Origin: Muricauda sp. SCSIO 64092
GTDB taxonomy: Bacteria > Bacteroidota > Bacteroidia > Flavobacteriales > Flavobacteriaceae
DNA length: 64,000 nucleotides
Assembly: GCF_023016285.1 (NCBI RefSeq)
Contig: NZ_CP095413.1
Span: forward strand, 3,861,001 to 3,925,000
Direction: 5' to 3'
A program made the translations under genes and the position numbers. Numbering within the stretch: the stretch's first letter is position 1; the number at the start of each line of letters is the position of its first letter. Below are positions 27,519 to 46,831 of this stretch, piece after piece. The notes under the pieces are model-generated. The model searched no databases. It saw nothing but the letters and a program-made list of their open reading frames with translations, and had not been told where the DNA came from.

Positions 27519-27530
27519 TATTGTACAGGT

Positions 27531-30100: not shown

Positions 30101-30109
30101 TTTTTAAAA

Positions 30110-31263: not shown

Positions 31264-32366
31264 TTTCGTTTACCATGCATTTCGGGTACAAGTAACTACA
31301 ATAATTATGATTTTTCCCGGCATGTGGAATGGAATTAAGTAAGCAAACGTGTTCATTTTCCATAAAAAGGTTGAACATTTTTGTTCTTTACCCATTCTTG
31401 GTCTTTTTAAGAGGTGTGGAGCCTTTTGATGTTTGGGTAAAATCAAAAACAGAAACAAAAAATATTAAAATAATGTAAATTTAATGTAAATAAATTGTAA
31501 ATTTATATCATGGTTATTCGGATACATATCAAAATTCCATATACCCGTATTCATTTTTGGTATTCTAAACTTAGCGTTTGGGGCAAGCTTTATGCAAAAA
31601 AATACCGACAGTTTTTCTATTTTGCCCTGTTTTCATAAAACTATGGAACACCAGTTGAAGGCGCCCCCCAATCCATACAAAAAGCCATCTTTCAAAAATC
31701 TTTGGATAAATCTGTATTTCGGTTTTGTAATGGCAACAGAAATTTGATGTTGTCAATCTCCTTGAATACGGACTGTCAACCAAAATCCATTTGATGGTTT
31801 TGCTTCTTTGCAGCTGTTCGGGAAGCTGCAGTACGGGGCAAAAGATAAGATTTACCCTGATTTGGTCTTTCGTCCTATAAGGGAAATCCAAGCGAATCTA
31901 TAGCGAGGTCCCAATTTGGATTGTATTAGGACGAATTCGTTCCTCCATACGGGGTTTACCCTTTAAATGACTTCGGCAGGATTTGGTCCTAGTTTCTGAA
32001 GTGCTATATTTTAAAGGATTTTTTAACCTAACAAAAATATGTTGACCAATTTGTTGAAGGTCTATTTAATTGTAATTGAAGTCATTTGACTTTCATTTCC
32101 AAAGTAAGAGTCCTAAATTTTAAAACAAAACCTATTTTGGAATGAATAAAGCTACTGCTTCGGTGAAAAAACCTACAAAAACTCTTTTTTGAAAGCAACC
32201 TAAGCATGGAAATGGCATCTTTTGTGTTACAGAAATTTCCATAAATATTAACGATTTGAACAAAATAAATACCTTTTGAAATTGTTTGAATAAAACCTAC
32301 GTAAAGTATGTGTTTGAAATAATTTCAAAAGTTCCAAAGTCTTATGGCAACCTAACCTACTTGACC
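31264..32366. other. Long AT-rich non-coding region with a tRNA-tail-like relic
   Basis: No convincing gene in 1.1 kb. It contains a run of near-repeats of AATGTAAATTT around 31470-31505. At 31968-31985 there is TGACTTCGGCAGGATTTG, which matches the 3' end of the tRNA-Arg at 40.7 kb except for one base and its copy at 37.95 kb. The last 150 bp should hold the promoter of the large secreted protein. A minus-strand frame at 31571-31891 has no protein-like features. Confidence 0.5.
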
Positions 32367-35300
32367 ATGAAATACAGCTACTTTCCTAAAGGTATCGTGT
32401 TCCTCCTTTCGCTATTGTGTACCATGCATAATTTTGGCCAGGTGCTGTCCGTAAACCCCCAGGATTCCTTGGTGGTCCTGGAATTCCACAATCGGCTCCG
32501 GGCTGAGGGATGGCCAAGCCAATGGGACGATACCACACCTGCACGACAATGGAACGGAATTTTTTGGGAACCTTTAGCCAATGGCAGGGTAACGGGAGTC
32601 TCGTTAATGGGCAACGGTTCCTTTACGGCTGAAAGTATGCCCATGGCAATTACCGTGCTCAAAGATTTGGATGAACTGGAAGAACTGTATATAAACAGTT
32701 TTGGACTTGAACGGGTCACTTCGGAAATTGGAGAACTCACACAGCTCAAGGTCCTACATCTGTCTGATAACGAACTGTCGGTTTTACCACCGGAAATCAA
32801 CAACCTTGGGAACCTTGAATTGCTGTTCATGGACAGGAACCGTTTTACATCGCTTCCCAACTTGTCCGGTCTCACAAATCTAAATACCCTCTCGTTGACC
32901 CAAAACTATGACCTGGAAGAAGTAGCACTGGACAATCTGGTAAGCCTTGAGATCTTAAGACTGGATTTCTGCCCCATTACTGAACTGCCCGAAACCATTG
33001 GCCAATTGACCAATCTGCGTATCTTGAACGTGGACCAATGCAAGCTTTCGTCCTTGCCCGATGCCATGGCCGATTTGGTCTCTCTCCAGGAACTGCGCAT
33101 GCTGCGCAATGAATTCAATACCCTACCGCCCGTGGTCGGAAGCATTCGTTCATTGCTCCTATTGGATGTCGCCTTCAACAAATTGACTGAACTGCCCACC
33201 GAATTGGGTCAGTTGGAAAATCTGGTGGACATTCGTTTCAACCATAACCTATTTACCGTTTTTCCATCCTCTATCCTGGATCTGCCCGCATTACGGGGCA
33301 TCAATGGCAGCAATAACCAAATAACGGGAAACATCCCTTCCCAGTTGTTCACCGTTACCAGCACATTGATCGATTTGTCCGATAACGATCTGTCGGGAGA
33401 AATCTTGTTGGGCCCAGGGGGCCAGGTGCCCCAACGGCTGCATATACCGGGGAACCGGTTCGAGCTGAAGGACATCCATACCCTCTATCCGGCCTTGGCT
33501 TTGGCCGGTACCGATTTGGAATTCAATCCCCAACAGTTGATAGGTTCCAACACTATCATGATACCGGAGGCAGGCACGGACATTGTCATAACGGTAGACG
33601 ACTACACCCCTCTGGCCGGGGCTCAAGTGAATTGGTACAGGTCCAACTCGGTCAACGGAAAACTTTCTGCAGATTTTTTGGGCCAGGGCAATTCCTGGAC
33701 ATTGAACGACTTTGACCCAAGCACTGACGGGGGCGTGTTCTTTTGCAAGGTCACCCATTCCGATCTGCTGGGCCTTGAACTGGAAAGTGAGGAAATCCGA
33801 GTCATCGGTACCAATGGTGCACCCCTATTGTTCGCTGAGAATCTAAAATTCAGAAAGGACAACATCCCTTTTTTTACCTTCAATGCTACCGATGATTATA
33901 CCAATGGACAGGACCTGGTATGGGATATTTCAGGTTCCACCCGATTTTCCTTTTTGGAACTTCCCTTCATCGGGATAGAGCGCAGGGAGATCATACTCAC
34001 AGACCCGGATTGGTCCGGAAGCGAGCTGGTGGAACTGCGGGTAACGGACGAACAGGGGAACACTACAACGGAAACGGTCACGATTACCGTATTGGAAGAG
34101 ACCAATGCTCCACCCGAAATTGGAACAGTGCCCCCAATCTATTTGAATTTTGATTTCTCGTTGCCCAATATAGGGGCGACAACCTGTCCGGAGACGTTCT
34201 ATTTCAGTGCCATCGCACTCTTGAACCCCTTCGTTTCTGACGATTTCGACGATATGGAGGACCTTACAATACGTATCCATCCCAACAACCCCGATGAACT
34301 TTTGACCCATGAATTAAGCGTCAACATTGGTGATGGGGGCCCTAGAAAGGATATCAATGCCTTATCTACATCCTGTGGAAATACCTTTTTTAGCGTGACC
34401 TTTACTCTGGAAGTCGAGGACAGGGAAGGAGGCAGTAGCAGCCGGGAAGTTGTTATCATCAACGATCCCGCCAATACATCACCACAAGTTTTGCCCATAC
34501 CGGAACAGGTCATCGTAAAGGGCAGTACAGACTTCCCCCTGTTGGACCTTACACCTTATGTGAGCGATGACAACCTACAGTTGGACCAATTGGAATTCTC
34601 TGTAATCAGTCAATCGGACATCGCTGTTGAATTCGAGAAGGAGGATGGAACGGTGATAGTCAATGCCTCGCCGATCAATTTGGACAGCAGTTATACCGAT
34701 ACGGTGCGTATACTGGTCCATGAGTCTACAAATCCTCAGTTCAATACGGAATTTACCATCACCTATCGTATACTGGAGAATGGGATTTTGGTATCCGGGA
34801 CTATATTGAAAGAAGATGCAACGCCAATTGCAGGGGTGGAACTCACAGGTTTCGAACGACCTGTTTCCACTGATAATCAAGGATTCTATACCATGGAAGT
34901 TACCCCAGGATGGACGGGAACCGTTGTGCCCGTATTGACAGGGTATACCTTTTCTCCTGAGAACACGGCGCTCTCCAATCTACAAAACGTTGTAGATGGA
35001 ATCGATTTTATCGGTACCCCTTTGATCGAACGCTATACCATTTCGGGAAGAATCGTCGATGAAACTGGGAACCCTTTACCCAATGTCCTATTAGGGGGAT
35101 TTACCGATACCATTTCCACGGATGCCAACGGTGTCTTTGTCGCAAGTGAGGAAGCAGGATGGACTGGAACGGTGATACCGAAGCTACAGGGCCATACCTT
35201 CTCCCCGGAAAGTATAATGATTACTGACCTGCAGGCGGACAGGGCCTCGATAGACTTTACGGCAGTAGCGAATCCCATGGAATTTTCCATATCCGGACGG

Positions 35301-36272
35301 GTGCTGGATGTAATGGGCAATCCTGTTCCGAACGTTGTCATAAACGGTTTTAGCAGTATTGTCAGTACGCACAGTGACGGAACCTACACTGTTACCCAGA
35401 CCATTGGCTGGTCGGGCAGCATTTCACCGGAACTGGACGGATACACCTTCTCCCCGGAAAATGTAATGATTGCTGACCTAAAGACAGACTTGGCCTCGGT
35501 AGACTTTATGGCAGTAGTGAATCCCATGGAGTTTTCCATATCCGGAACGGTAATGGACATCATGGGCAATCCCGTTCCGAACGTTGTCATAAACGGTTTT
35601 AGTGGTATGGTCAGTACCGATGGCAATGGAAACTATCGTACCAATGAAACCGCTGGATGGTCAAGCACCCTCTTCCCAGAATTACAGGGATATATTTTTG
35701 TCCCTGAACGTATAGTGATACCGGACCTTGCTTCGGATCGAACGGACGCCGATTTTACCGCTATCGCCATTCCAATTGAGTTTGCCATCTCAGGTACCGT
35801 AACCGATCAAGAGGGGAACCCTATGGAAAGTGTCCTTTTAAAAGGTTTTACCAAGGATGTAATCTCCGATATGGACGGTCATTTTGGGACAACGGAAAGT
35901 ATGGGATGGTCCGGTCTTATCGTCCCGGAACTGGAAGGCCATCGTTTTGAACCTGAAACGTTTGGGATTGTCGCTCTGGACAGGGACCGCATCGTCGATT
36001 TTGAGGCAATTTCAGATTCCACCAATAAGATCGTTAAAATGCGGATCTATCCCAACCCAGGGGAGGATGGGGAGTTCACCATTGTGCTCCCACAGCCTGA
36101 ACCGATAAGATCCATTCGCATTTTTGGAAGCTCGGGAAGGCTTGTCCACGAATCACAGGTCGAAGGAACGTTCGATTCCTATACCGTGGAACATGCCCTG
36201 CCCACTGGTCTGTATACCCTTGAGGTTAGAACCGGGAAAGATAGGATGGCGCAAAAGCTGCTGGTTCGATGA
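32367..36272 (+). CDS. Large secreted leucine-rich-repeat adhesin with five tandem repeats and T9SS sorting domain
   Basis: The ATG at 32367 is chosen because it opens on the signal peptide (FPKGIVFLLSLLCTMHNFGQ); the frame is also open upstream from a TTG at 32286. The product is about 1,302 aa. Leucine-rich repeats of the SDS22/disease-resistance style cover about 75-370 (L..L..N.L..LP). Ig/cadherin-like domains follow. Five tandem repeats of ~83 residues (bases about 34785-36020) share ISG-V-D--GNP-PNV---GF and GW-G---PEL-GY-FSPE. The last ~75 residues start MRIYPNPG and end in basic MAQKLLVR, a type A T9SS sorting domain. The protein is therefore expected on the cell surface or secreted, probably for adhesion or glycan contact. 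Confidence 0.9.
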   Translation: MKYSYFPKGIVFLLSLLCTMHNFGQVLSVNPQDSLVVLEFHNRLRAEGWPSQWDDTTPARQWNGIFWEPLANGRVTGVSLMGNGSFTAESMPMAITVLKDLDELEELYINSFGLERVTSEIGELTQLKVLHLSDNELSVLPPEINNLGNLELLFMDRNRFTSLPNLSGLTNLNTLSLTQNYDLEEVALDNLVSLEILRLDFCPITELPETIGQLTNLRILNVDQCKLSSLPDAMADLVSLQELRMLRNEFNTLPPVVGSIRSLLLLDVAFNKLTELPTELGQLENLVDIRFNHNLFTVFPSSILDLPALRGINGSNNQITGNIPSQLFTVTSTLIDLSDNDLSGEILLGPGGQVPQRLHIPGNRFELKDIHTLYPALALAGTDLEFNPQQLIGSNTIMIPEAGTDIVITVDDYTPLAGAQVNWYRSNSVNGKLSADFLGQGNSWTLNDFDPSTDGGVFFCKVTHSDLLGLELESEEIRVIGTNGAPLLFAENLKFRKDNIPFFTFNATDDYTNGQDLVWDISGSTRFSFLELPFIGIERREIILTDPDWSGSELVELRVTDEQGNTTTETVTITVLEETNAPPEIGTVPPIYLNFDFSLPNIGATTCPETFYFSAIALLNPFVSDDFDDMEDLTIRIHPNNPDELLTHELSVNIGDGGPRKDINALSTSCGNTFFSVTFTLEVEDREGGSSSREVVIINDPANTSPQVLPIPEQVIVKGSTDFPLLDLTPYVSDDNLQLDQLEFSVISQSDIAVEFEKEDGTVIVNASPINLDSSYTDTVRILVHESTNPQFNTEFTITYRILENGILVSGTILKEDATPIAGVELTGFERPVSTDNQGFYTMEVTPGWTGTVVPVLTGYTFSPENTALSNLQNVVDGIDFIGTPLIERYTISGRIVDETGNPLPNVLLGGFTDTISTDANGVFVASEEAGWTGTVIPKLQGHTFSPESIMITDLQADRASIDFTAVANPMEFSISGRVLDVMGNPVPNVVINGFSSIVSTHSDGTYTVTQTIGWSGSISPELDGYTFSPENVMIADLKTDLASVDFMAVVNPMEFSISGTVMDIMGNPVPNVVINGFSGMVSTDGNGNYRTNETAGWSSTLFPELQGYIFVPERIVIPDLASDRTDADFTAIAIPIEFAISGTVTDQEGNPMESVLLKGFTKDVISDMDGHFGTTESMGWSGLIVPELEGHRFEPETFGIVALDRDRIVDFEAISDSTNKIVKMRIYPNPGEDGEFTIVLPQPEPIRSIRIFGSSGRLVHESQVEGTFDSYTVEHALPTGLYTLEVRTGKDRMAQKLLVR
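34785..36020 (+). repeat. Five in-frame ~249-bp tandem repeats
   Basis: Repeat units begin near 34785, 35037, 35283, 35532 and 35781. Units 3 and 4 are nearly identical over GGCAATCC-GTTCCGAACG and the following bases, showing recent duplication or homogenisation. Each unit encodes one beta-sandwich-like (carboxypeptidase-regulatory-like) domain. Confidence 0.85.
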
Positions 36273-36293
36273 TTTAGGTGGTTTGTCAATACG

Positions 36294-36557
36294 ATGATAA
36301 ACTTGGATGACCGTATCCGGAGTTTTAAAAATCTGCGCGGACTGATCAATAGTCGGAAACTGTTGGGCTATAAATTGAACCAGCTGGCCAAGTTCAACTA
36401 CGAGCGTGAAGGCTCCAGCGCATTCAACTTAAGAGATTACCATGGTTTCGAGTTCAAGACCACCAACACCAATTTTATTCACCTGTTGACGTTTGAAACC
36501 AAATCAATTCAGATTAAATGGTGGTCCGAAAACAACGAAACCTTGCAAAATCTATGA
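36294..36557 (+). CDS. Hypothetical 87-aa protein
   Basis: Not recognised. A soluble 87-residue protein, basic in the N-terminal third, aromatic toward the end (FEFKTTNTNFIHLLTFE, IQIKWWSE). It begins 21 bp after the adhesin gene and its last codons lie inside a perfect 12-bp-stem hairpin that acts as terminator. It may be a real small gene or the remains of a larger one truncated by the mobile region to its right. Confidence 0.4.
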   Translation: MINLDDRIRSFKNLRGLINSRKLLGYKLNQLAKFNYEREGSSAFNLRDYHGFEFKTTNTNFIHLLTFETKSIQIKWWSENNETLQNL

Positions 36558-36569
36558 TTGCAAGGTTTC
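36537..36569. terminator. Palindromic terminator of tail module 7
   Basis: A perfect 12-bp stem (GAAACCTTGCAA / TTGCAAGGTTTC) with a 9-nt loop. It ends the adhesin/87-aa transcript and, read leftward, follows a degenerate tRNA-tail copy at 36594-36611. Confidence 0.75.
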
Positions 36570-36593
36570 TTATTAGTTTGGAGCTTCTTCCCA

Positions 36594-36611
36594 GTGACCT
36601 CCACAGGATTT
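36594..36611 (-). repeat. Degenerate tRNA-Arg 3'-tail copy (module 7)
   Basis: GTGACCTCCACAGGATTT differs by only two bases from the GTGACCTCGGCAGGATTT of the copy at 37.95 kb. The similarity continues to GCAC about 26 bp in. Confidence 0.55.
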
Positions 36612-36854
36612 TCTACGCACTGCTTTAACATCCTGACAAACCTGCCTGCCGGCTCTTAGGTTTGTATTATTAAATCGAAGTATCTTAAAAAAGAAAAGGA
36701 TGGGTGAACTTTCTTGCCGGCTAGATAAGATCCATTGCCTGTATTAGTCCCATCCTTAACTTTTAGACTGCCCGGAACCAGTTGGAATTTTAGATATCAA
36801 GGTCTATTAAGAGTCTTAGTCCCCTGGCAATCATTAACCTAATTCAAATGTACA
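36612..36854 (+). ncRNA. Possible IS110 bridge-RNA region upstream of the recombinase
   Basis: This 243-bp non-coding segment precedes an IS110-family recombinase. AAGGATGGG (36696-36704) and CCCATCCTT (36749-36757) form a perfect 9-bp stem enclosing 44 nt that hold shorter pairings. IS110 elements are known to encode a structured bridge RNA in the non-coding end next to the recombinase. The exact RNA ends and the guide loops were not worked out. Confidence 0.4.
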
Positions 36855-37841
36855 ATGAAAAAAGAATTTATCGGTATTGACGTTTCAAAAAGTACCCTCG
36901 ATGTATACCTCTATCATGGCAAAGCGCACAAAGTATTTGATAATACCCTCACTGGGTTCTCTAAATTATTAGCCTGGGCGAAAAGACAATTGAAAGAAAC
37001 TGAACCTGTATTTTGTTTTGAGCACACGGGTATCTATAGCTTAAAACTTTGTGAATTTATGCAACAAAATCAGTTTACCTATTTTGTGATCTCTGGGTTG
37101 GAACTCAAGCGGTCTCTGGGTATTAAACGTGGAAAGAATGACAAGGTCGATGCACAAGCTATTGCGCGTTATGCCTTTTTGTTCGAAAAGGAGTTGACCC
37201 CCTATCAACTTCCGGCCACATCATTATTAAAGCTGAAGAACTTATTAACTTACCGTGCTAAACTTGTACGGCAAAGAACAGCCCACCTCAACCAAATCAC
37301 CGAGCAAAAAAAAGTGCTGCAGGTATCCCCGGATGATCCCATACTTGTTTCTGCGCAACAGATCATACAATTTTTGACCAAGGAAATCCTTCAGATCGAA
37401 AAACTTATAAGAACTCAGATCCAACAAAATCAAGAAATCACTCGAACCTTTAAGCATATCACCTCTATCAAGGGAGTCGGTTTAATCCTGGCGGTAACAC
37501 TAATCACCGCAACCGATAACTTTAAAGCGTTTAAAACCTGGAGACAATTTGCTTGTTATGCCGGAATTGCGCCTTTTGAGCATCAATCAGGAACGAGTAT
37601 AAAAGGCAAAACCAGGATAAGTACCTTGGGAAACCGAACAATAAAAACCTTGCTATCACAAGCAGCAGCTACCGCATTACAGCATGATCCAGAGATAAAA
37701 ATGTATTACCAGCGGAGGTTGAAAGCCGGTAAATCCAAAATGTCAACAATCAATGTGATACGTAATAAAATAGTAAGCCGAACTTTTGCCGTGGTCAAGC
37801 GGGACAAGCCATATGTAAATTTAGCAAAATATGCAGCTTGA
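36855..37841 (+). CDS. IS110-family DEDD recombinase (transposase)
   Basis: A complete 328-aa IS110-family transposase. The N-terminal RuvC-like DEDD domain shows D9 in FIGIDVSKS, E56 in FCFEHTG, and D96/D99 in KNDKVDAQAIA. The C-terminal Tnp_20 domain contains ITSIKGVGLILAVTLI and CYAGIAPFEHQSGTSIKG, with the conserved catalytic Ser. It is intact and ends in a TAQ-free simple stop. IS110 elements insert at specific short targets without terminal inverted repeats, so the element ends are not marked. It lies inside the tRNA-tail array. Confidence 0.95.
   Translation: MKKEFIGIDVSKSTLDVYLYHGKAHKVFDNTLTGFSKLLAWAKRQLKETEPVFCFEHTGIYSLKLCEFMQQNQFTYFVISGLELKRSLGIKRGKNDKVDAQAIARYAFLFEKELTPYQLPATSLLKLKNLLTYRAKLVRQRTAHLNQITEQKKVLQVSPDDPILVSAQQIIQFLTKEILQIEKLIRTQIQQNQEITRTFKHITSIKGVGLILAVTLITATDNFKAFKTWRQFACYAGIAPFEHQSGTSIKGKTRISTLGNRTIKTLLSQAAATALQHDPEIKMYYQRRLKAGKSKMSTINVIRNKIVSRTFAVVKRDKPYVNLAKYAA
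36855..37841 (+). mobile_element. IS110-family insertion sequence (core only; ends undetermined)
   Basis: The gene is the only defined part. The left end should lie between 36612 and 36696 and the right end between 37842 and about 37900, but no boundary is visible, as is usual for this family. Confidence 0.7.
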
Positions 37842-37897
37842 AAATTTGGATAAACCTTAGAATACAGGCAGGGCTCCGCCTTGAGAATCAAAACCTC

Positions 37898-37937
37898 GCT
37901 AAAACAAAAAAGCAAACTATTTGTTTTAGCTTGCTTT
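37898..37937. terminator. Terminator of tail module 6 with two competing hairpins
   Basis: Two mutually exclusive stems: GCTAAAACAAA (37898-37908) with TTTGTTTTAGC (37920-37930), and AAAGCAA (37909-37915) with TTGCTTT (37931-37937). It lies 10 bp before (plus-strand sense) the tail copy at 37948. Confidence 0.5.
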
Positions 37938-37943
37938 CGATCC

Positions 37944-38123
37944 ATTCGTGACCTCGGCAGGATTTGTTGGCGCACTTCCTTTGTGTTCTCGCCTGAAAAT
38001 AGAAAATCCAATTGCCATGCAATTGATTTTATTTTTACTCCGAACTTTAGAATCTTTGATTCAAGTTCTCCATAAAAACAAAAATCCATCACTACAGTGA
38101 TGGATTTTCTGTTATAAGTGACC
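37944..38123 (-). repeat. 180-bp direct repeat, copy A
   Basis: It matches 40539-40718 at 178 of 180 positions (differences: GTT/GCT near 37966 and G/A in ATTGATT/ATTAATT). It opens with the tRNA 3'-tail sequence (37948-37966) and ends with a terminator (38081-38108) plus the first bases of another tail (GTGACC). Copy A has lost the tRNA body. A third tail-like start (38118-) continues as unrelated sequence. Confidence 0.9.
38081..38108. terminator. Palindromic terminator inside repeat copy A (module 5)
   Basis: A 13-bp stem AAAATCCATCACT / AGTGATGGATTTT with a 2-nt loop, identical to the terminator next to the tRNA-Arg gene. Confidence 0.8.
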
Positions 38124-38218
38124 CTAAACATTCAAGGTTCAAACTTTTTGGTTCAGGATTTAAAATCAATTGGAGAGCTTTCAAAAGATATCCCTGCTTT
38201 ATTAATTGCTTGTTAGCT

Positions 38219-39136
38219 TTATTTTTCTCCTATATCAATTTTTAAAATCCTTTTAGGGTATAGACCTAGTTGTTTATCATAGTATTCTTCAGATATAATA
38301 GGTGCATTTTTAATGACAATATTATTATCATAATTATTGGGACTCATAAATATTGAGTCTTCAGATATTGTTCTGTAAGCTATTCCTAATGTATATTCTT
38401 TATCTCTTTTTTTCATTTCTTCTTCTTCATCTCTATCAATTAATAACTCAGTATTTTTAAAGAAAGGAGGTAACGATTTATGGTAACCAACAACATCTTC
38501 TCCTTTTTCCTTACATGAATTAAGTAAATTCTCAACATTTTTAGAATGCATCAAATATCGTATTGGAAAAGTGTTTTTATGGCAATGTATGCTTTCAAAC
38601 TTTTTATTTCCTCTTACTTTAGAATCCAACAGCTTCAAAATATTCTCAATAGGACTACATGTCCAACCAAATTGTTCTATCTGATACTCTTCTTTTTTTT
38701 GATGCCAAAAGGAGTGCAAATCGTCGTTATTTCTTACTCTTACGTAATTGTAAAAAGAATATAAAGGAATTGCATTATTTTTTTCGGCATACCTTTTTAA
38801 AATATCTACTTGTCTTTTTTGATTTGGTTTTTGACCAGATTTATAGTTTAAAGACTTGTAATTAAGGGTCTTAGGGTCTATTTTTTTAGCTTGAACAGCA
38901 TAACGCAGCCACCCCATCTTTTCATTTCCTATCCACCATTCCCAATCAGTTCCTTTTTCCGGTTCTTTAATTTTTGGAGTTTGTATCACTATTATATTCC
39001 TATTTCCAGAACGTAGTATTTCCAATAAGATAATATCAGTTATGGTTTCTTCTCCCTGCCTAATACTCGCTCTACTTGTGTCCCTTAGTCGAAACCATAC
39101 ATCCTGCGATATTTGTTCAAATAATTTGTAAATCAT
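38219..39136 (-). CDS. DUF6615-like protein with a nuclease-like motif pattern
   Basis: The ATG at 39136 is chosen; the frame is open to 39310 but that part crosses a palindromic terminator. The product is 305 aa. ISQDVWFRLRDTSRAS, then RQGEETITDIILLEIL and KGTDWEWWIG...RYAVQAKKID resemble the DUF6615 family. The D-W-E ... Q-A-K spacing looks like the D-(n)-[E/Q]-x-K core of PD-(D/E)XK nucleases; this is inference. The gene is markedly AT-rich relative to its surroundings, sits between two tail modules and points the same way as the tRNA, as a cassette gene would. A defence or competition role is possible. Confidence 0.6.
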   Translation of the reverse strand: MIYKLFEQISQDVWFRLRDTSRASIRQGEETITDIILLEILRSGNRNIIVIQTPKIKEPEKGTDWEWWIGNEKMGWLRYAVQAKKIDPKTLNYKSLNYKSGQKPNQKRQVDILKRYAEKNNAIPLYSFYNYVRVRNNDDLHSFWHQKKEEYQIEQFGWTCSPIENILKLLDSKVRGNKKFESIHCHKNTFPIRYLMHSKNVENLLNSCKEKGEDVVGYHKSLPPFFKNTELLIDRDEEEEMKKRDKEYTLGIAYRTISEDSIFMSPNNYDNNIVIKNAPIISEEYYDKQLGLYPKRILKIDIGEK

Positions 39137-39184
39137 AGATAATTGTTTCTTAATAAAAAAATTAGATAAATGAAAATAAATAAA

Positions 39185-39202
39185 CCAGACAAATTTGTCT
39201 GG
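39185..39202. terminator. Palindromic terminator of tail module 4
   Basis: An 18-bp perfect palindrome (CCAGACAAATTTGTCTGG), AAA before and CTTT after, followed by a second small hairpin GGACAA/TTGTCC at 39209-39222. Confidence 0.7.
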
Positions 39203-39247
39203 CTTTATGGACAATTTTGTCCAACTCATGACCTCCACATGTTTGCC

Positions 39248-39261
39248 TTCCAGAGCAAAGT
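39248..39261 (-). repeat. Degenerate tRNA-tail copy (module 4)
   Basis: ATGACCTCCACATG resembles the GTGACCTCxxCAGG tail. The 60 bp after it are about three-quarters identical to the sequence after the module 3 tail (both contain AGGATTACTC-TTTCACTC-TGA). Confidence 0.45.
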
Positions 39262-39409
39262 CTTGCTTAGCGAAGGGAGGATTACTCATTTCACTCATGA
39301 CCCCGAGCATCCGGAGTTCGAATTTTTCTACTGATTCTTTAGATAATATTAACAGGTATTTTGAAGATCAAAACATCTTGAAAATTGCTTGTTGAAGTTC
39401 TCTTATGTT

Positions 39410-40225
39410 TTATTTTTTGGATTCGAGTAGTTTTTCGATTTCTGCTAATCTTTTTTCAAGTGATCTCAATCTTTCAATTTCTTTTTGTTGTTGGATTGTA
39501 TAAAGTGTAAGTTCTTCTATTTTTTGAAGTAATTGTATCTGAAAATCTCCTATATTCACTCCATTTTTTTCCATTTCTTTTGCAGAAGCAATGTTAGGTA
39601 AATGTTTTTTCTCTTTAATATAGTTTTCAATGAATTCAAGAGTAGGCAAATTATAATCACTTTCAAATACAAAATCAGCGGTTGGAGTAAGGGTTACTTT
39701 TATTTCTTTTGATTCCAACTTACCATATATGGCAACATTTCCACTTTGTTTAAAAATAACTGATGGGCTGCCTCCTTTAGGCCTAAATTCTAAATAATCA
39801 TTATTCCCATATTGTGCTATATCCCAAAAATTCATTTCAGGCCCTTTTAGCCTTATAAATGCCCATTCACTTGAGTTTGTATTTTCAATACTTAATTCGG
39901 CTCTATTACTTTTTATATGTAAATTGCTAGATGGGTCAGATGTTCCAATTCCAATTTTACCACTATTACGTTTAATAACAAATGTGTTTGAATTCCAGCT
40001 ATCGTTATATCTTCTATCAATATAAAAATCATCCAAATTATTGATCCCCATTGTTATTTTAAAACTTTCATTTCTTGACCAACCTAGCCAAGAGTAATCA
40101 GAATCTGTACTATTAAGATGTAATAAATTATTTTGAGAACTTTTAATATGTATTGGGTTAGATTGACCTTTCATATTGAAAGAAAAAGCTATTAGAGTTA
40201 GAGTAAAAATAGTTTTTTGTATCAA
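39410..40225 (-). CDS. Secreted tail-fibre-like protein with C-terminal coiled coil
   Basis: TTG start at 40225, followed directly by a signal peptide (IFTLTLIAFSFNMKGQ); 271 aa. Residues 70-140 show the motif FVIKRNSGKIGIGTSDPSSNLHIKSN, found in flavobacterial proteins related to phage tail fibres. The C-terminus carries FVFESDYNLPTLEFIENYIKEKKHLPNIAS, typical of the S74/intramolecular chaperone-like end, then a coiled coil (IQQQKEIERLRSLEKRLAEIE). AT-rich and flanked by tail modules 3 and 4, it has the look of an imported single-gene cassette. It has no T9SS sorting domain. Confidence 0.7.
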   Translation of the reverse strand: MIQKTIFTLTLIAFSFNMKGQSNPIHIKSSQNNLLHLNSTDSDYSWLGWSRNESFKITMGINNLDDFYIDRRYNDSWNSNTFVIKRNSGKIGIGTSDPSSNLHIKSNRAELSIENTNSSEWAFIRLKGPEMNFWDIAQYGNNDYLEFRPKGGSPSVIFKQSGNVAIYGKLESKEIKVTLTPTADFVFESDYNLPTLEFIENYIKEKKHLPNIASAKEMEKNGVNIGDFQIQLLQKIEELTLYTIQQQKEIERLRSLEKRLAEIEKLLESKK

Positions 40226-40338
40226 TTTCTTCTTATATAAGTGATTTTATTATAAAAATTCAAATAATTGCTTACAACAATTGTATAAACCCAATAGGGT
40301 ATGTTTATTAAACATAAAAGTAAGAATAACCAACAAAA

Positions 40339-40364
40339 AAAGCGAGACAATATTGTCTCGCTTT
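40339..40364. terminator. Perfect 26-bp palindrome, terminator of tail module 3
   Basis: AAAGCGAGACAAT is followed directly by its reverse complement (AT overlap centre), with T/A tracts on both sides. A bidirectional terminator. Confidence 0.8.
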
Positions 40365-40383
40365 GGTAAATTTTGTCTTAAAA

Positions 40384-40397
40384 GTGACTTCTACAGG
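40384..40397 (-). repeat. Degenerate tRNA-tail copy (module 3)
   Basis: GTGACTTCTACAGG, compared with GTGACCTCGGCAGG of the tRNA. It lies 19 bp from its terminator, the same arrangement as at the real tRNA gene. Confidence 0.5.
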
Positions 40398-40492
40398 CTC
40401 GTCTGCCATAGCTAAGCTTTGTTTAGCGATGTCAGGATTACTCGTTTCACTCGTGATTCTGACAAAGCTCCGCTTTGAAAATAATTCAAACA

Positions 40493-40523
40493 AAAAAACG
40501 CTCAAGCTAGCTTGGCGTTTTTT
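40493..40523. terminator. Palindromic terminator of tail module 2
   Basis: AAAAAACGC (40493-40501) pairs with GCGTTTTTT (40515-40523), and AAGCTAGCTT forms the inner stem. It is 20 bp from the tail copy at 40543. Confidence 0.8.
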
Positions 40524-40538
40524 CTTATTGAACTATTT

Positions 40539-40718
40539 ATTCGTGACCTCGGCAGGATTTGCTGGCGCACTTCCTTTGTGTTCTCGCCTGAAAATAGAAA
40601 ATCCAATTGCCATGCAATTAATTTTATTTTTACTCCGAACTTTAGAATCTTTGATTCAAGTTCTCCATAAAAACAAAAATCCATCACTACAGTGATGGAT
40701 TTTCTGTTATAAGTGACC
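40539..40718 (-). repeat. 180-bp direct repeat, copy B, abutting the tRNA
   Basis: It matches 37944-38123 at 178 of 180 positions. Its inner end includes a perfect tail copy (GTGACCTCGGCAGGATT, from 40543), then about 130 bp of unassigned sequence, the tRNA terminator, and the last five bases of tRNA-Arg. Confidence 0.9.
40676..40703 (-). terminator. tRNA-Arg terminator
   Basis: A 13-bp stem with a 2-nt loop, 11 bp past the 3' end of the tRNA gene, with a T tract on the minus strand. Confidence 0.85.
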
Positions 40719-40787
40719 TCGGCAGGATTCAAACCTGCAACCTTCTGAGCCGTAATCAGATGCGCTATTCAGTTGCGCCACGAGGCC
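40714..40787 (-). tRNA. tRNA-Arg (anticodon ACG)
   Basis: A full 74-nt cloverleaf was folded by hand on the minus strand: acceptor GGCCTCG / CGAGGTC (one G-U pair) with discriminator A, D stem GCGC/GCGC, anticodon stem TCTGA/TCAGA with loop TTACGGC (anticodon ACG), T stem GCAGG/CCTGC with loop TTTGAAT. The CCA is not encoded. ACG (read as ICG) decodes CGU, CGC and CGA. Confidence 0.97.
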
Positions 40788-40803
40788 GTTATAATTAGGG
40801 GTG

Positions 40804-40834
40804 CAAATATATTTCTTTTTAAATTTATGGCAAA
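40804..40834 (-). promoter_or_regulatory. Bacteroidota promoter of tRNA-Arg
   Basis: On the minus strand, TTTG (40831-40834) is followed after 19 bp by TATATTTG (40804-40811), exactly the TTTG-N19-TAnnTTTG form, 16 bp before the tRNA 5' end. Confidence 0.8.
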
Positions 40835-40852
40835 ACCCATCAATTAAAAGCA

Positions 40853-41365
40853 ATGGATTTTGATTCGTATATACGTGATGTAAAAGACTTTCCGAAACCT
40901 GGAATCCTTTTTAAGGATATTACCCCTTTGCTACAGGATGCAACGGCAATTAAAAGAGCCTCGGAAACACTCTATGATTTTGTGGGAAATCATGAGGTGG
41001 ACAAGGTTGTGGGGGTAGATAGTAGGGGTTTTATTTTTGCCCCTTTATTGGCGTATAAATTGGACGCCGGCTTTGTGCCCATAAGGAAAAAGGGGAAGCT
41101 TCCTGCGGATAAGCTTTCAGAATCCTATGACTTGGAATATGGTACGGACACCTTGGAAATTCATTTGGATGCCATAAAGCCGGGGGAAAAGGTGTTGGTC
41201 CATGATGATGTTTTGGCCACGGGAGGTACCGCAGAGGCGGTATGTAGGTTGGTGGAGAATCTAGGAGGGCTTGTGGTACAATGTAATTTTATTATCCATT
41301 TAAGCTTTTTGCAAGGAGAACAGAAACTGAATGGCTATCCCATCAAATCCTTGTTGACCTATTGA
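40853..41365 (+). CDS. apt: Adenine phosphoribosyltransferase
   Basis: A 170-aa enzyme that salvages adenine to AMP using PRPP. The PRPP-binding motif VLVHDDVLATGGTAEA lies at about 115-130, with DSRGFIFAPLLAYKL and FVPIRKKGKLP as further family motifs, and the IRDVKDFPKPGILFKDITPLL opening is typical. Start ATG is only 66 bp from the divergent tRNA gene. Its 3' end overlaps the convergent small gene by 7 bp. Confidence 0.97.
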   Translation: MDFDSYIRDVKDFPKPGILFKDITPLLQDATAIKRASETLYDFVGNHEVDKVVGVDSRGFIFAPLLAYKLDAGFVPIRKKGKLPADKLSESYDLEYGTDTLEIHLDAIKPGEKVLVHDDVLATGGTAEAVCRLVENLGGLVVQCNFIIHLSFLQGEQKLNGYPIKSLLTY

Positions 41366-41511
41366 TCCAGTGCATTTTTAGTGACGTAATAACGCCATCC
41401 AATAACAGCCAACTGCCATTTTTTTGCCTTGGCCAAATCCAATTGTTGTTTGGTGAAGGAAGGAAGTAGTGCTTTGTTGAGTTTGGCCAGGAACTTAAAG
41501 AGTGATTTCAT
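41359..41511 (-). CDS. Conserved small flavobacterial protein (50 aa)
   Basis: A 50-residue basic protein starting MKSLFKFLAKLNKALLP and ending YYVTKNALDQ. I recognise the pattern (K-F-L-x-x-L-N-K, then Q-L-D-L-x-K-A-x-K-x-Q-L-A, then W-R-Y-Y-V-T) as a small protein conserved across Flavobacteriia, often mislabelled 'SsrA-binding protein'. It is far too short to be SmpB. Function unknown. It converges on apt with a 7-bp overlap of stop regions. Confidence 0.7.
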   Translation of the reverse strand: MKSLFKFLAKLNKALLPSFTKQQLDLAKAKKWQLAVIGWRYYVTKNALDQ

Positions 41512-41540
41512 TTTGCTGTATTGTGGATTGCAATCTACTA

Positions 41541-41570
41541 AAAAAGCCCTGACTATCACATCAGGGCCTT
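41541..41570 (-). terminator. Terminator of the SPFH gene
   Basis: A GCCCTGA/TCAGGGC stem followed on the minus strand by a T tract, about 15 bp after the SPFH stop codon. Confidence 0.8.
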
Positions 41571-41586
41571 TGGTTTAAGGGCAATT

Positions 41587-42921
41587 TCACTTTTGATCGC
41601 TTTCTATCATCTTTTTGGCCAATTCCGCCCCAATCAGGGATTCCAATAAGTTACCCTCGTTGGTTTTGCCCCCATTTCCATCAATATAGATTTCAGGTAG
41701 GTTTAGGCTTTTCAGCTGTCCGGCTACACCCACTGCCGTCTTGTACTCCCACTCGGCACGTTCCTGGGGAGTTAAACCGGCATTGACCAATTTGGCATTT
41801 TGATAGGCCTCGGCATCCGCCGCGACCTTTTTGCTCTGTGCCTTGAATTTTTCTACTTCAAATTGCTTTTTCTCCTTGACCAGGTTGAATTCGGCAACCT
41901 TTGCTTCGGTTTCCGCAGCAATCGTTTTCTGGATTTGTTCCTTTTCCAATCGGGCGCGTTCTGCAGCCTTTTCTGCCTCGCCACGGGCCTTTTCCTTTTG
42001 TGCGCGGTAGAACTCCCGCTCAGCCTGTTGCTTTTCGAGCTGTGTCTGCGCCACTTCTTCCTTTTGCAATTGTAGGCGCTTATCAAAGGTTTGTTCCCAG
42101 TCAATTTCGGTAACCACGGCCTGTACAACGGTCAATCCATAGGCTTTAAGGGAGTTGCCCCGCTCACGCACGGGGAGGCCATCCTTAAATTTTATTCGAA
42201 AACGTTTCTGTTTGCTCTCTTTGTTCACAACGGTCCGTACTGTTGCGGAGTCTCCAATGATTTCCTGGGGTTCACTGGCCACATACTCTTCCAATACATA
42301 CATTCCGTTTTCCAGTTGGTCCTTAAAATAGCGATCAAAGTCGGAGGCCTGCCCCGAAATATAGTCCTGGGCATCCATTAGTTTGCAGGTATTTTTAATA
42401 CTCTGGTCAATATTGGGAATGATCCGTGAACGAATCAGGTTTTTCTCCGTTTTGTTCCTGTCCGCAACGGATAGGAATTGTATCTCATCTTCGGTATTGA
42501 TACTGATGACCACAGAAGTGGCAATCCGTGCTTTTACCGCATCACTGAAAGCCCAATATTTGGCTTTATCGACATTGGCATATTCGCTCTGCTCTCCCAA
42601 TTCCCCTTCACCATTTGGAATCACGTATTTAATGGGAAGTTCAAACTGAATAGGGATAAGCCTGCCCCACATTTTGGTATGGATTCCCTGTCGGAAAACC
42701 GCTTTTTGACCACCCCACGGGTATTGCACGGCATAGGCGGTACCTGGTTCCGCATAGAAAAAAGTGCCGGTTACAACGCTCAACACAATACCTACCAAAA
42801 CAATTTGCAGGCTTTTTCGGGTATTGAACCATTTGAGCAAGTTCGAATTTTTAAAAATGGGTTTAAGGACAAGCGTGCTTAAACCAATGACAATAACAAG
42901 TACTCCTAAGAAAGTTAACAT
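41587..42921 (-). CDS. SPFH/Band 7 domain membrane protein
   Basis: The ATG at 42921 (MLTFLGVLVIVIGLST) is preferred over a TTG at 42948; 444 aa. An N-terminal helix (residues 1-20) and a second one (about 40-58) precede the SPFH domain (about 60-300: AVQYPWGGQKAVFRQGIHTKMWG, AYGLTVVQAVVTEIDWEQTFDK). A very long charged coiled coil rich in K, E and A follows (about 260-360). SPFH proteins (stomatin, prohibitin, flotillin-like) form large membrane rings or microdomains. It is a single gene with its own terminator. Confidence 0.9.
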   Translation of the reverse strand: MLTFLGVLVIVIGLSTLVLKPIFKNSNLLKWFNTRKSLQIVLVGIVLSVVTGTFFYAEPGTAYAVQYPWGGQKAVFRQGIHTKMWGRLIPIQFELPIKYVIPNGEGELGEQSEYANVDKAKYWAFSDAVKARIATSVVISINTEDEIQFLSVADRNKTEKNLIRSRIIPNIDQSIKNTCKLMDAQDYISGQASDFDRYFKDQLENGMYVLEEYVASEPQEIIGDSATVRTVVNKESKQKRFRIKFKDGLPVRERGNSLKAYGLTVVQAVVTEIDWEQTFDKRLQLQKEEVAQTQLEKQQAEREFYRAQKEKARGEAEKAAERARLEKEQIQKTIAAETEAKVAEFNLVKEKKQFEVEKFKAQSKKVAADAEAYQNAKLVNAGLTPQERAEWEYKTAVGVAGQLKSLNLPEIYIDGNGGKTNEGNLLESLIGAELAKKMIESDQK

Positions 42922-42973
42922 AGGTCTAAAATTTAAAAGGTTGGACAATAATTTTTGATTTCACTTGGAAATC

Positions 42974-43008
42974 CTTGGCGGGGAGTTGCTCACAAAAGCA
43001 CCGCCAAG
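42974..43008. other. Hairpin in the leader of the SPFH gene
   Basis: A perfect 8-bp stem (CTTGGCGG / CCGCCAAG) with a 19-nt loop lies about 55 bp upstream of the SPFH start codon, overlapping the end of a 20-codon frame. It has no T tract, so a leader-control element is as likely as a terminator. Confidence 0.4.
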
Positions 43009-43052
43009 ATGGAAAGGATAAATGTGAGCAACAATTTAGCTAAGGTTATCAT
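42990..43052 (-). CDS. Possible 20-aa hydrophobic peptide (SPFH leader)
   Basis: ATG (43052) to TGA encodes MITLAKLLLTFILSILAVLL, a single transmembrane-like helix, just before the SPFH gene and overlapping the hairpin at 42974-43008. It may be a microprotein or an uncoded coincidence in AT-rich leader DNA. Confidence 0.25.
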   Translation of the reverse strand: MITLAKLLLTFILSILAVLL

Positions 43053-43391
43053 GATCGATTGTTTTTTGATACTGAGTTATTCTGATCCTCAGTTTTGATT
43101 GATTTAAACTCCGTTTTTGATTTGTTTTTTCAATATATCATGATAATTATCATACTTACAAATATTTTGATGCTAAATATTGAAATTGAATATAAATATG
43201 TAAGTAAAAAAATGAAATTTGTTACAATATTTTACACTACTCCTTGATTAAAGTTTATAAATGTAAATACAGAATAAGGTTTTCACTCCAAACTGTAGGT
43301 TTTGTAGGGGGTTTTTAAGGGATTTTTCAAAAACCAAGGGGCATTTCGTTTAAAAAATGGTGTTTTTTTGCGTTTTCGTTTTTTGATCAAC
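43053..43391. other. AT-rich intergenic region
   Basis: Nothing coding is visible. The stretch is strongly AT-rich and presumably carries the SPFH promoter at its left side; the right side is the downstream region of the M56 gene. Confidence 0.5.
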
Positions 43392-43422
43392 AAAAAAAGC
43401 CAACCGTTTTAGGGTGGCTTTC
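43392..43422 (-). terminator. Terminator of the M56/BlaI operon
   Basis: AAAGCCAACC / GGGTGGCTTT stem (one mismatch) with flanking T tract on the minus strand, about 25 bp past the M56 stop. Confidence 0.7.
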
Positions 43423-43447
43423 TGAGTGGAAATGGAATGTTTTTTGG

Positions 43448-45163
43448 CTAGTTTTTCGCCTTGGTGGTAAACTCGACCACTCCGTTCTTAGCTTTTCTAC
43501 CATATTTTTTTGTGGCCGCTTTCCCCTTAAGGACATTTACGCTTTCAACTTCATCCGGTGACAGTTGTTTTACCTCTTTTTTGGAGGATTCCTTTCCATT
43601 AATTACGTACAGCGGTTCTTTTCCATCGGTATCAACATAGAAGAAACCGTTGTCCCCACTAAGTACTTCAATATCGGAATCATCGTCCGAGTCCTTTACA
43701 ACCATTACCTGTTTCCCATTTTTGGCTTTGTGTTTGCTGATTTTATATGGTTTTTTTGCGTTTTCGTCCGCATCTACGGAAATATACATGTGTACACTTT
43801 CATCATGGTCCTCGTCCACATGAACCTGTATATCGTGCTCTTGTAGCTCACTTTCGTCAACCTCCTCACCATTGATGAAGACTTTGCTTACGCCATCCTC
43901 TTTTTTGATCACTACTTCTTTAGGTTTATCATCCCCAGTACTCACCCAAACCCTGTTTTTATTTGTAAACACATTTGTGGTTTGCGATTTGTATGCCCCT
44001 TTGGAGCCGATGGAAACCAAATTGTTTTCAACATCGACCAATATGAACAATGGGGAAATCCCATTTTTGGTATCCGATGTATTGTGGGAGTTATTAAAAG
44101 CAGCACCGTTTTTGCCAATACCGGATACATGCAGGGAAATATCAATGATTTCCCGGTTATCATTGCGAACGGTGGTGTAACTAAAGTCAACATCATCTTC
44201 GGCCAGGGTTTTCTTCATTTCCCTAAGCTCATCGTCAGAGGTGTCCTTATTGATGATGAGTTCGACCTTTTTGTAGGGTTCAACCCCATTTGGACTGTTT
44301 TCATTTGGAAACTGATAGACCGTTTCCGTGTTAAAACCTACTAAGAATACGACTAAAAAGGGCAATACAATGAGGGATTTCAAGGCCTTCATTTGTTTTG
44401 ATTGATTTTTGTTCAACATGACTATTCGTTTTTTGATTAATGAATTATAGAAAGAATTTGTGATTGAAAATTGATACCCTGTTGCTTGATTGACCATCAA
44501 ATATTGATAGGATTTTCTATTGAACGTATGAATGGCTTTCGCGTCGGCCAAAAACTCCAGGTTCTGTTGTACCTTCTTTTGGTAGATCCAAATCAAGGGA
44601 TTGAACCATAGCAATACCTTTAATAGTTCTGCCAATAGCACATCTACGCTATGCCAATCCCTGGCGTGTACTTTTTCATGGGCCAGAATGGCCTCCAGTT
44701 CGTTTTTATGAAATTGATTGGGATTGTAAAAAAGACTTTTAAAAAAAGAAAAGGGCGCTATTTTTTCCCGGGTCTCTACGTGCAACAAATCGTCTTCCTG
44801 CCACGTACGCCCATTTTTGTAGAGTCTTTTCATGGATTTCAATTGTATAAGAAAACGTATGAGGAAAAAGAAGCATCCCAGAATATATATAAAGAGTAAT
44901 AGGAACACCCAAGTGGGGAGGGTAGGATCCAAGGGAAGTACATTTGTAATGGATTCCCCATTGTCCTGGGTAGGGACCAATTGAAGGGATACCGTACGCT
45001 TTAATTTAAGGAATGGAAGTAATGCGGCGGTCAAAATACCCAATATTAGGAATAGCCTATTTTCACTAAAAGTAGTTTCCCGTTGCAGGAACAAGCAATA
45101 GGTACACCAAAATAAAAGTAGGATTCCGGACGACTTTAAAAGATAAATAGCAAATTCCACCAT
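43448..45163 (-). CDS. M56-family (BlaR1-like) membrane metallopeptidase with TonB-plug-like C-terminus
   Basis: A 571-aa protein. Four transmembrane helices cover about 5-105 and 265-290. The zinc motif HEKVH is at 162-166. After the last helix comes a large periplasmic part, and the C-terminal 50 residues (YVINGKESSKKEVKQLSPDEVESVNVLKG) copy the plug motif of TonB-dependent receptors. It follows the BlaI-like gene with a 1-bp TAATG overlap. In BlaR1/MecR1 systems the peptidase cleaves the BlaI repressor on sensing a signal. The plug-like tail suggests a signal or partner at the outer membrane instead of a beta-lactam. Confidence 0.9.
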   Translation of the reverse strand: MVEFAIYLLKSSGILLLFWCTYCLFLQRETTFSENRLFLILGILTAALLPFLKLKRTVSLQLVPTQDNGESITNVLPLDPTLPTWVFLLLFIYILGCFFFLIRFLIQLKSMKRLYKNGRTWQEDDLLHVETREKIAPFSFFKSLFYNPNQFHKNELEAILAHEKVHARDWHSVDVLLAELLKVLLWFNPLIWIYQKKVQQNLEFLADAKAIHTFNRKSYQYLMVNQATGYQFSITNSFYNSLIKKRIVMLNKNQSKQMKALKSLIVLPFLVVFLVGFNTETVYQFPNENSPNGVEPYKKVELIINKDTSDDELREMKKTLAEDDVDFSYTTVRNDNREIIDISLHVSGIGKNGAAFNNSHNTSDTKNGISPLFILVDVENNLVSIGSKGAYKSQTTNVFTNKNRVWVSTGDDKPKEVVIKKEDGVSKVFINGEEVDESELQEHDIQVHVDEDHDESVHMYISVDADENAKKPYKISKHKAKNGKQVMVVKDSDDDSDIEVLSGDNGFFYVDTDGKEPLYVINGKESSKKEVKQLSPDEVESVNVLKGKAATKKYGRKAKNGVVEFTTKAKN

Positions 45164-45522: not shown

Positions 45523-45557
45523 GGGTCACATTTTGATCTGGTAAACGTAAAAAGAAT

Positions 45558-45593
45558 TTTATAGTTATTCAACTATATTTATAGTTATTTAAC
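45558..45593. promoter_or_regulatory. Candidate BlaI operator
   Basis: TTTATAGTTATTYAAC is repeated at 45558-45573 and 45578-45593 (20 bp apart). The first copy includes a perfect inverted repeat ATAGTT-ATTC-AACTAT (45561-45576). The element lies between the BlaI gene and the divergent antiporter gene, so it could affect both. Confidence 0.6.
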
Positions 45594-45674
45594 GAAAATT
45601 TTAGTTTTTTATGGGAAAGCTTTTTGATGAAAGCCATTTCTTCTTGCCATATATTTGTCGCAAATACACTATCC

Positions 45675-46613: not shown

Positions 46614-46765
46614 GACCAGTGGTCAAACTCAGGGCTAAAGGATAGTTCCTATTCGCACTTCTCCCATTTCCCCACGTATTCGTTTATGGATTATGGACGA
46701 TTTTTTCCCAGAGGTTTTATGGAATACCCAAACAAATGAACCCGCATTTCGCAGCAATGAAAGCA

Positions 46766-46805: not shown

Positions 46806-46831
46806 ACACTATACAACAACTAATTTATTCA

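Follow-up and report, generated by a model that had tools for sequence, protein, structure and literature searches.

The window (the whole 64,000-nucleotide stretch of Muricauda sp. SCSIO 64092 that was analysed) contains a tRNA-Arg(ACG) gene on the minus strand (40713..40787; ARAGORN; Rfam tRNA, 59.6 bits), downstream of which lie seven blocks, reaching position 31967, that are delimited by the 3′ end of the tRNA or by sequences copied from it. The repeated tail is the last 17 nt of the tRNA (40713-40729; AATCCTGCCGAGGTCAC in the minus-strand reading). Unit 1 (block B, copy B1; 40543..40712, minus strand) is a 170-nt gamma unit with a tail copy at 40543-40559 and a structured body (40586-40712) whose first base is the one directly after the tRNA (offset 0); it scores 124.5 bits with model R1, of whose training set this copy is part. 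Unit 2 (D; 40384..40542, minus), an alpha/beta unit, comprises a body at 40457-40542 and a degenerate tail at 40384-40400 (102.4 bits with model R2, again as part of the training set). The next two units carry genes: unit 3 (E; 39228..40383, minus) has a hairpin and T run, then a tail-fibre-like ORF (39410-40225, minus) that has no Pfam family in the Pfam scan and has genes of the same family at other places in its own genome, with a degenerate tail at 39228-39244; unit 4 (F; 38118..39227, minus) has a hairpin and a DUF6615 gene (38219-39139, minus; PF20320), for which a search of 149 genomes at E ≤ 1e-10 found a match in its own genome and in none of the 148 relatives. Unit 5 (B2; 37948..38117, minus; body 37991-38117, tail 37948-37964; 126.8 bits) is a second copy of unit 1, 2595 nt away and 99% identical. 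Unit 6 (A; 36594..37947, minus) is of alpha/beta type (body 37863-37947, tail 36594-36610; 79.7 bits with R2) and is split by an IS110-family transposase gene (36855..37841, plus; PF02371 and PF01548). Block 7 (C; 31967..36593, no strand assigned; outer tail 31967-31983) holds an 87-aa ORF (36294-36557, plus) and a protein with LRR, CarboxypepD_reg and Por_Secre_tail Pfam domains (32286-36272, plus).

Single genes thus occupy two of the seven blocks (E and F) and two ORFs a third (C), the remainder being non-coding and structured: three blocks are members of two covarying structured families (gamma and alpha/beta), a fourth is a unit of this kind interrupted by IS110, and most units measure 113-171 nt. 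A sequence-only reading of this DNA had described tail-plus-terminator modules at 36537..40787, separated by single-gene elements and an IS110 recombinase. The modules are real, each site named there showing, by eye, a hairpin with a T run that comes after the tail in the tRNA direction, and the array continues outward to the tail at 31967. Single-gene elements are not the rule, the non-coding units belonging to families found at many other tRNAs, and IS110 was ruled out as a module of its own, because it lies inside unit A, which is unbroken in the close relative GF1.

The tails range from identical to degenerate, as had been proposed: two are exact (40543 and 37948), two carry 2 mismatches (36594 and 31967), two carry 5 (40384 and 39228, the latter previously placed at 39248), and GTGACC alone is left at 38118. 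Across the whole window, 13 forward matches with at most 5 mismatches were found (the tRNA itself counted), against 4, 4 and 5 in three control versions, so that neither of the tails with 5 mismatches is significant by itself. Chance was ruled out as the source of the tails by 41 tRNA-Arg loci (our own and 40 taken from 75 matching genomes, covering ~18 kb downstream where the contig permitted), in which searches with each locus's own tail (≤3 mismatches) returned 24 forward matches in 14 loci and 0, 0 and 0 in three controls. The same test on 57 tRNA-Arg-bearing loci (of 80 loci named as apt, with GF1 counted again) gave 10 forward matches in 7 loci, 2 reverse-complement matches and 0 reversed. 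Within the genome itself, a 16-mer at ≤2 mismatches had 8 forward matches and 1 reverse match, whereas the reversed pattern had 2 and 0; the array locus accounts for 5 of the 9, the tRNA itself among them.

The gamma body (~125 nt) shows two-sided changes in 25 of 39 pairs, and its observed covariation was reached by 0 of 500 shuffles in four of five measures and by 29 of 500 in the fifth. The covarying structure extends past the terminator, and it may have a role beyond termination. Counts of G-T versus A-C cells (222 versus 80 in 97 rows, on a model-fitted alignment that leans the same way) suggest that the tRNA-sense strand may be the folding strand; on unfitted alignments the counts were 28 versus 18 and 6 versus 7. 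In relatives, 92 of the 98 examined gamma matches come after the 3′ end of a tRNA or tmRNA or after a tail copy (the tail part of this placement test was also passed by 22 of 1000 random stretches), and the 57 directly adjacent cases span 15 tRNA species plus tmRNA. A copy of the local tRNA's tail occurs at 53 of the 98 matches, against 1 of 98 for reversed tails, with 45 of the 98 having no copy at ≤1 mismatch; at ≤2 mismatches, the count is 59 of 98 versus a swapped-tail mean of 9.95 (highest, 15), a contrast that is exaggerated because other genomes contribute tails of the same isotype. The repeat is 12-17 nt long in 46 of the 53, most commonly 17 nt (from the T-loop to position 74; 18 of 53), and the distance between body end and right tail is 20-49 nt in 52 of the 53 (28-33 nt in 29) and 64 nt in one. 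Tail sequence tracks the neighbouring tRNA instead of the body family: identities of up to 77-78% occur between gamma bodies located at different tRNA species although their tails remain local, which simple cassette exchange does not predict. The alpha/beta family has a covarying structured body of ~86 nt, and 23 of its 30 matches begin at a tRNA 3′ end; most of the 30, judged by eye, have no tail copy within 60 nt. Rfam yielded no gathering-score match other than tRNA in the window stretch and ten loci, and known Rfam RNAs were ruled out, with MicX, L10 leader and snoZ267 falling below their own gathering scores.

Comparison with GF1 revealed both flanks to be collinear at 93-94% (block C being shared collinearly), with breaks at 36610 and 40713, tail to tail, and a further alignment break at the IS110 gene. 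Between the two outer breaks, GF1 has A-B (274 nt) where the window has B-D-E-F-B-A (4.1 kb); the two blocks common to both are swapped in order, so unit order has changed between close relatives with breaks at tails. Block B differs by 6-7% between the window and GF1, as do the flanks, and by 1% between its two window copies.

Among the unit ends listed in a comparison of closing palindromes with tails, the T-stem-like arms are mostly some 10-25 nt apart, a spacing wider than the usual duplex core site. In this comparison, which used 42 of 54 ends, the closing palindrome matches its own tail at a mean of 6.21 of 8, compared with 5.09 for swapped tails, none of 200 swaps exceeding 6.0. Our favoured explanation, to which we give about even chances, is that the locus is an array of units stacked on the tRNA-Arg(ACG) 3′ end and grown by recombination at the T-arm/acceptor end, with the enzyme acting in trans. 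A unit starts at the base after the tRNA or a tail copy, with a terminator-like hairpin near its start. Its content is a non-coding structured body of the gamma or alpha/beta family in some units and one or two genes in others, and a complete unit finishes in an imperfect palindrome that mimics the T-arm and acceptor end of the tRNA, a tail copy being its last part. New units would join on the tRNA-proximal side through recombination at the T-arm/acceptor end, each addition rebuilding the tRNA so that older tails shift outward, and units may also be lost or moved; the recombinase would most likely come from elsewhere, for example from integrase-bearing elements using the same tRNA end. Insertion at the tRNA end with rebuilding and outward displacement had already been proposed by the sequence-only reading, and gains support from the GF1 breaks and changed order, the 24 matches against none in controls, and the Euzebyella start described below. 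Neither conservation of module content and order across distant genera nor tails as common as in random intergenic DNA, which that reading had listed as counting against it, was found. Weighed against the favoured explanation were that no recombinase was found in the window, the differing lengths of the attachment repeats (46 versus 12-17 nt), the wide arm spacing, the missing tails (45 of 98 gamma matches and most alpha/beta matches), the similar gamma bodies with local tails at different tRNA species, and the short reach of the Euzebyella likeness.

None of the genome's 16 PF00589 places lies inside the window, as anticipated, and the array elements contain no integrase by PF00589 places and Pfam scan. 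Integrase-bearing elements (profile-backed) occupy this tRNA in three relatives, Euzebyella marina (L270), G007 and G004. In Euzebyella, a block-C-like start lies directly 3′ of the tRNA (79% in 121 nt, 17 of them the tail) and is followed by a tyrosine integrase (PF00589); the likeness is limited to the tRNA-proximal ~100 nt of block C and could reflect the separate arrival of a related element. The far end of the G004 element is a 46-nt tRNA copy, whereas 46 of 53 units have repeats of 12-17 nt, so this enzyme need not act on the units (one integrase element compared). No integron integrase exceeded the curated cut-off (265 bits) in any of 60 genomes, and such an enzyme is thus not supported for the units; 16 loci around recombinases matching PF00589 or TIGR02249 contained nothing that the gamma model matched at E ≤ 0.1.

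Among other explanations, tyrosine-recombinase islands of the ordinary kind could have integrated one after another and then decayed, in which case the units would be stumps, each a tRNA-proximal terminator plus a far attachment site. The integrases in elements at the same tRNA, the resemblance of block C's proximal end to that of the Euzebyella element, and, in G028, a 5.3-kb and a 9-kb block that lie between tails and have no integrase among their ten main ORFs (Pfam scan), all speak for such decay, which nevertheless leaves unexplained both the two covarying, set-size body families at 15 tRNA species plus tmRNA and the 28-33-nt placement of the tail in 29 of 53; we consider it unlikely. Transposition of small non-autonomous elements into tRNA 3′ ends, with the tails as target-site duplications, would account for tails that track the local tRNA and for the likeness of the gamma outer stem to terminal inverted repeats, yet the inverted repeat starts ~7 nt from the left tail and stops at least some 30 nt short of the right one, and tRNA anatomy fixes the left edge of the direct repeat (from the T-loop to position 74 in the commonest length, 17 nt; 18 of 53). 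We know of no transposase that sets its repeat edge in this way, and find transposition distinctly improbable.

Copying might also be purely local, the tRNA and its trailer terminator being repeated by slippage or unequal crossing-over and the gamma and alpha/beta structures being merely conserved tRNA terminators. Slippage is favoured by short repeats around hairpins, and near-identical tandem neighbours do occur (G021, G083 and G088; 96-99%). However, neighbours can differ greatly in sequence, as do two G028 units, one intervening unit holds a gene absent from 148 relatives, the covarying structure runs past the terminator and the order change has its breaks at tails, all of which leave us with little confidence in local copying.

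Integron gene cassettes recombine at attI/attC sites, and the present units resemble them in being discrete, in changing order, in the single-gene cargo of two units, in the imperfect palindrome at unit ends and in having a fixed neighbour gene on the entry side; they differ in that no integron integrase passed the cut-off in the 60 genomes, a tRNA gene would serve as the primary site and most units are gene-free. Like MITEs, they are short and non-coding with inverted repeats and direct-repeat flanks, whereas their target anatomy is fixed and the inverted repeat does not adjoin both direct repeats, given the distances of the right tail noted above. The closest known system is tRNA/tmRNA island accretion (CIME-like): the elements are bounded by tRNA 3′-end copies (two degenerate, one reduced to six bases) and lack integrases in the window, and integrase elements share the site in the three relatives, although the one compared, that of G004, has a different attachment repeat. 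In Dehalococcoides, the tmRNA (ssrA) islands are arranged in tandem downstream of a single tRNA-type gene, and 20-bp repeats of the 3′ end of that gene, with the left edge in the T-loop, mark their limits; they carry genes, many with a serine recombinase, and several, discussed as possibly cis-mobilizable, have no integration module (PMC3146451). The array shares with these accounts the tandem arrangement, the T-loop left edge and the members without an integration module, and departs from the Dehalococcoides islands as described there in that its units are mostly structured non-coding stretches of 113-171 nt, in families found at 15 tRNA species plus tmRNA and in many genera. No description of such tRNA-end units was found in open-licence papers, where the name 'toRNAdo' also led to nothing fitting.

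A broader proposal, which we advance tentatively as possible though not probable, is that flavobacteria have a cassette system in which the 3′ ends of many tRNA genes and tmRNA serve as entry sites, recognized by T-arm/acceptor shape and not by sequence, with short structured units, some bearing a gene, as cassettes. tRNA genes are landing sites of islands, and such an element is usually kilobases long with its own enzyme; here, two families of gene-free structured units of set size are found at the 3′ end of tmRNA and of 15 tRNA species, and the local tail frequently closes the unit. If the units are not mobile, they would represent a class of tRNA trailer structures for which we found no description in the open-licence literature. 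If they are mobile, they would be among the smallest site-directed elements known to us, and one would have to ask how a single machinery manages to act on many different tRNA sequences.

Outward of the tRNA-Arg(ACG) gene (40713-40787, minus strand, by tRNA prediction), seven blocks are bounded by copies of its last 17 nt ('tails'), in the order B1, D, E, F, B2, A and C. The tails are exact at 40543 and 37948, carry 2 mismatches of 17 at 36594 and 31967 and 5 mismatches at 40384 and 39228, and persist as the remnant GTGACC alone at 38118. Over 180 nt, B1 and B2 share 99% identity. The ORF in E (39410-40225) is tail-fibre-like and has no Pfam family, and Pfam scans placed a DUF6615 gene in F and an IS110 element in A, with C encoding a long LRR protein as well as an ORF of 87 aa. 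The DUF6615 gene was matched in its own genome alone (1 of 149 genomes, E up to 1e-10), and the gene family of unit E had 12 matches in this genome, itself counted (one at G000:C1:5257650-5258222). As a set, the tails exceeded the chance rate, in line with the sequence-only reading: across 41 tRNA-Arg loci (this one and 40 relatives fetched from 75 matching genomes, 99 having been searched) there were 24 forward matches and none in three control versions. Over the whole window, 13 forward matches (the tRNA counted) compared with 4, 4 and 5 in controls; the two 5-mismatch tails, taken alone, are not significant.

The earlier proposal that units insert at the tRNA 3' end and rebuild the tRNA is well supported, in part by comparison with a close relative (GF1; WNKP01000015.1, L259). 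Collinearity between GF1 and the window extends over 27008-36610 (93.4%) and 40713-51414 (94.1%), which puts the break points at the two tails; between these flanks GF1 has 274 nt (A then B, counted from the tRNA) and the window 4.1 kb (B, D, E, F, B, A), the order of A and B thus differing. B diverges from GF1 by 6-7%, as do the flanks, whereas the window's two copies are ~1% apart, indicating that one of them arose as a copy after the split. The IS110 element, previously read as a gene between modules, instead lies within unit A; in GF1 this unit is uninterrupted. By eye, the IS110 also sits in a CCTGCC...GGCAGG-type palindrome; likewise, such a palindrome interrupts some tail copies at about the same place, the tRNA itself being intact (L058, L067, L054 and L061 in tRNA-Arg arrays; L103 and L112 in tmRNA-type tails). 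In Euzebyella marina (L270), a block-C-like start lies directly after the tRNA (79% over 121 nt, tail included), as would fit if the window tail at 36594 once formed the end of the tRNA; however, the match is limited to the first ~100 nt of C before the stretch runs into a tyrosine integrase, and a related element may have arrived separately there.

The bodies of the B units (gamma) and of D and A (alpha/beta) appear structured. Gamma is drawn as an outer stem that carries three hairpins, and the first of these is terminator-like. Both structures were drawn by the analyst from the very sequences tested, so slid controls lean in their favour. For gamma (13 sequences, 12 genomes), 85.3% of cells paired versus 72.2% in shuffles, two-sided changes occurred in 25 of 39 pairs, and the observed value was reached by 0 of 500 shuffles in four measures and by 29 of 500 in a fifth (further pair types), and for alpha/beta (9 sequences) 7 of 19 pairs showed two-sided changes, a count that none of 500 shuffles reached. 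Neither family had an Rfam match at gathering scores; of the flavobacterial RNA motifs in Rfam, which include 6S-flavo and Flavo-1 (PMC2864571, as excerpted), these two did not turn up in scans of the window stretch and ten loci.

Both families sit predominantly at tRNA or tmRNA ends. The gamma model matched 66 of 149 genomes (E up to 0.01); from 148 matches, weaker, antisense and duplicate ones were dropped, leaving 98 sense-strand matches of at least 37.4 bits within fetched loci (some genome-scan matches lie outside these). Fifty-seven started within 12 nt of a predicted 3' end (Ala, three Arg, Asp, Leu, Lys, Met, Phe, Pro, two Ser, Trp, two Val and tmRNA), and 35 more followed a tail at most 2 mismatches from a known one, giving 92 of 98; the tail part was passed by 22 of 1,000 random stretches. 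The failures were window unit 5 (B2), which has a degenerate left tail, a pair of tandem G088 units with a variant tail, two after tRNA-Asp tails judged by eye, and L179, with nothing tRNA-like nearby. A copy of the preceding tail (at most 1 mismatch in 12) stood after the body in 53 of 98 cases, whereas the reversed tail gave 1 of 98, and no such copy followed the other 45; the repeat was 12-17 nt in 46 of the 53, most commonly 17. Alpha/beta matched 27 of 99 genomes, and of the 30 places obtained as loci, 23 begin at a tRNA 3' end and seven follow a tail, by eye. Among 53 loci named as apt, 19 gamma and 7 alpha/beta matches (E up to 0.05) were found, some antisense or away from a tRNA. Behind tRNA-Asp-type ends (L148, L172, L174, L178), the gamma model also caught a related form with a long second palindrome, whose start (AAACCCTTCA...) is shifted downstream.

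Unit ends often carry a segment complementary to the T-stem strand just ahead of the tail copy and, further out beyond an unpaired spacer, a short stretch able to pair with the tail's last bases. Across the 42 of 54 unit ends used, the mean fit to the own tail was 6.21 of 8, versus 5.09 for tails swapped between isotypes (highest of 200 swaps, 6.0), and at least 7 in 17 of 42. The integron attC is a folded site, to which the unit end may be similar, but no integron integrase scored above cut-off in 60 genomes. Separately, an IntI-like tyrosine recombinase (G000:C1:1401233-1402051; L210:6234-7052; copies in L208 and L209) has a PF00589 match and ~112 bits to TIGR02249 (cut-off 265), and adjoins single tail-fibre-like genes, after which come AACA...CGTTAG/CGTTAT-type palindromes; the locus has the appearance of a small flavobacterial chromosomal integron. 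One unit-E-family gene lies near the integron-like locus in L209.

In agreement with the sequence-only reading, no integrase was found in the window (0 of the genome's 16 PF00589 places, E up to 0.001). A unit would insert at the tRNA 3' end, rebuilding the tRNA, and a site-specific recombinase acting in trans, our best reading though one we give only an even chance, may perform the insertion. Integrases occur at the same tRNA in relatives G007 and G004, but the sole integrase element compared, the 8.4 kb element of G004, ends in a longer repeat, a 46-nt tRNA copy. Also against such a recombinase, bodies up to 77-78% alike occur at different tRNA species while their tails fit the local tRNA, which favours target duplication, under which the tails would be duplicated target. 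Local copying as the source of units accounts for some tandem twins but leaves gene-bearing units unexplained. Larger integrase-less blocks between tails also occur, as in G028, where two such blocks measure 5.3 and 9 kb and a Pfam scan of their ten main ORFs found no integrase. The G004 element also encodes a reverse transcriptase (PF00078, 574 aa; L057:1353-3077), and behind tRNA-Arg in G117 lies a run of several GIxT..P-type secreted proteins (L085, 819-6654 from the tRNA).

Searches of a library of open-licence papers brought up no prior description of gamma or alpha/beta units. The nearest described system found is the Dehalococcoides ssrA island array, for which an excerpt of PMC3146451 gives 20-bp repeats of the gene's 3' end, beginning in the T-loop, and tandem islands, some of which lack integration genes and were considered possibly cis-mobilizable; compared with the islands as excerpted, the present units are small, gene-free and structured and occupy many tRNA species. 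A survey cited in PMC2647930 (seen as an excerpt) reports that attachment place within the tRNA gene follows integrase subfamily. Local-tail matches (up to 3 mismatches) occurred in 14 of the 41 tRNA-Arg loci, and the same test on another set, the 57 of 80 loci named as apt for which a tRNA-Arg(ACG) was predicted, gave 10 forward matches in 7 loci, one of them GF1 (the same genome as G003), against 2 in reverse complement and none reversed. A tail copy is therefore absent from most of these tRNA loci, and the units come and go between species.
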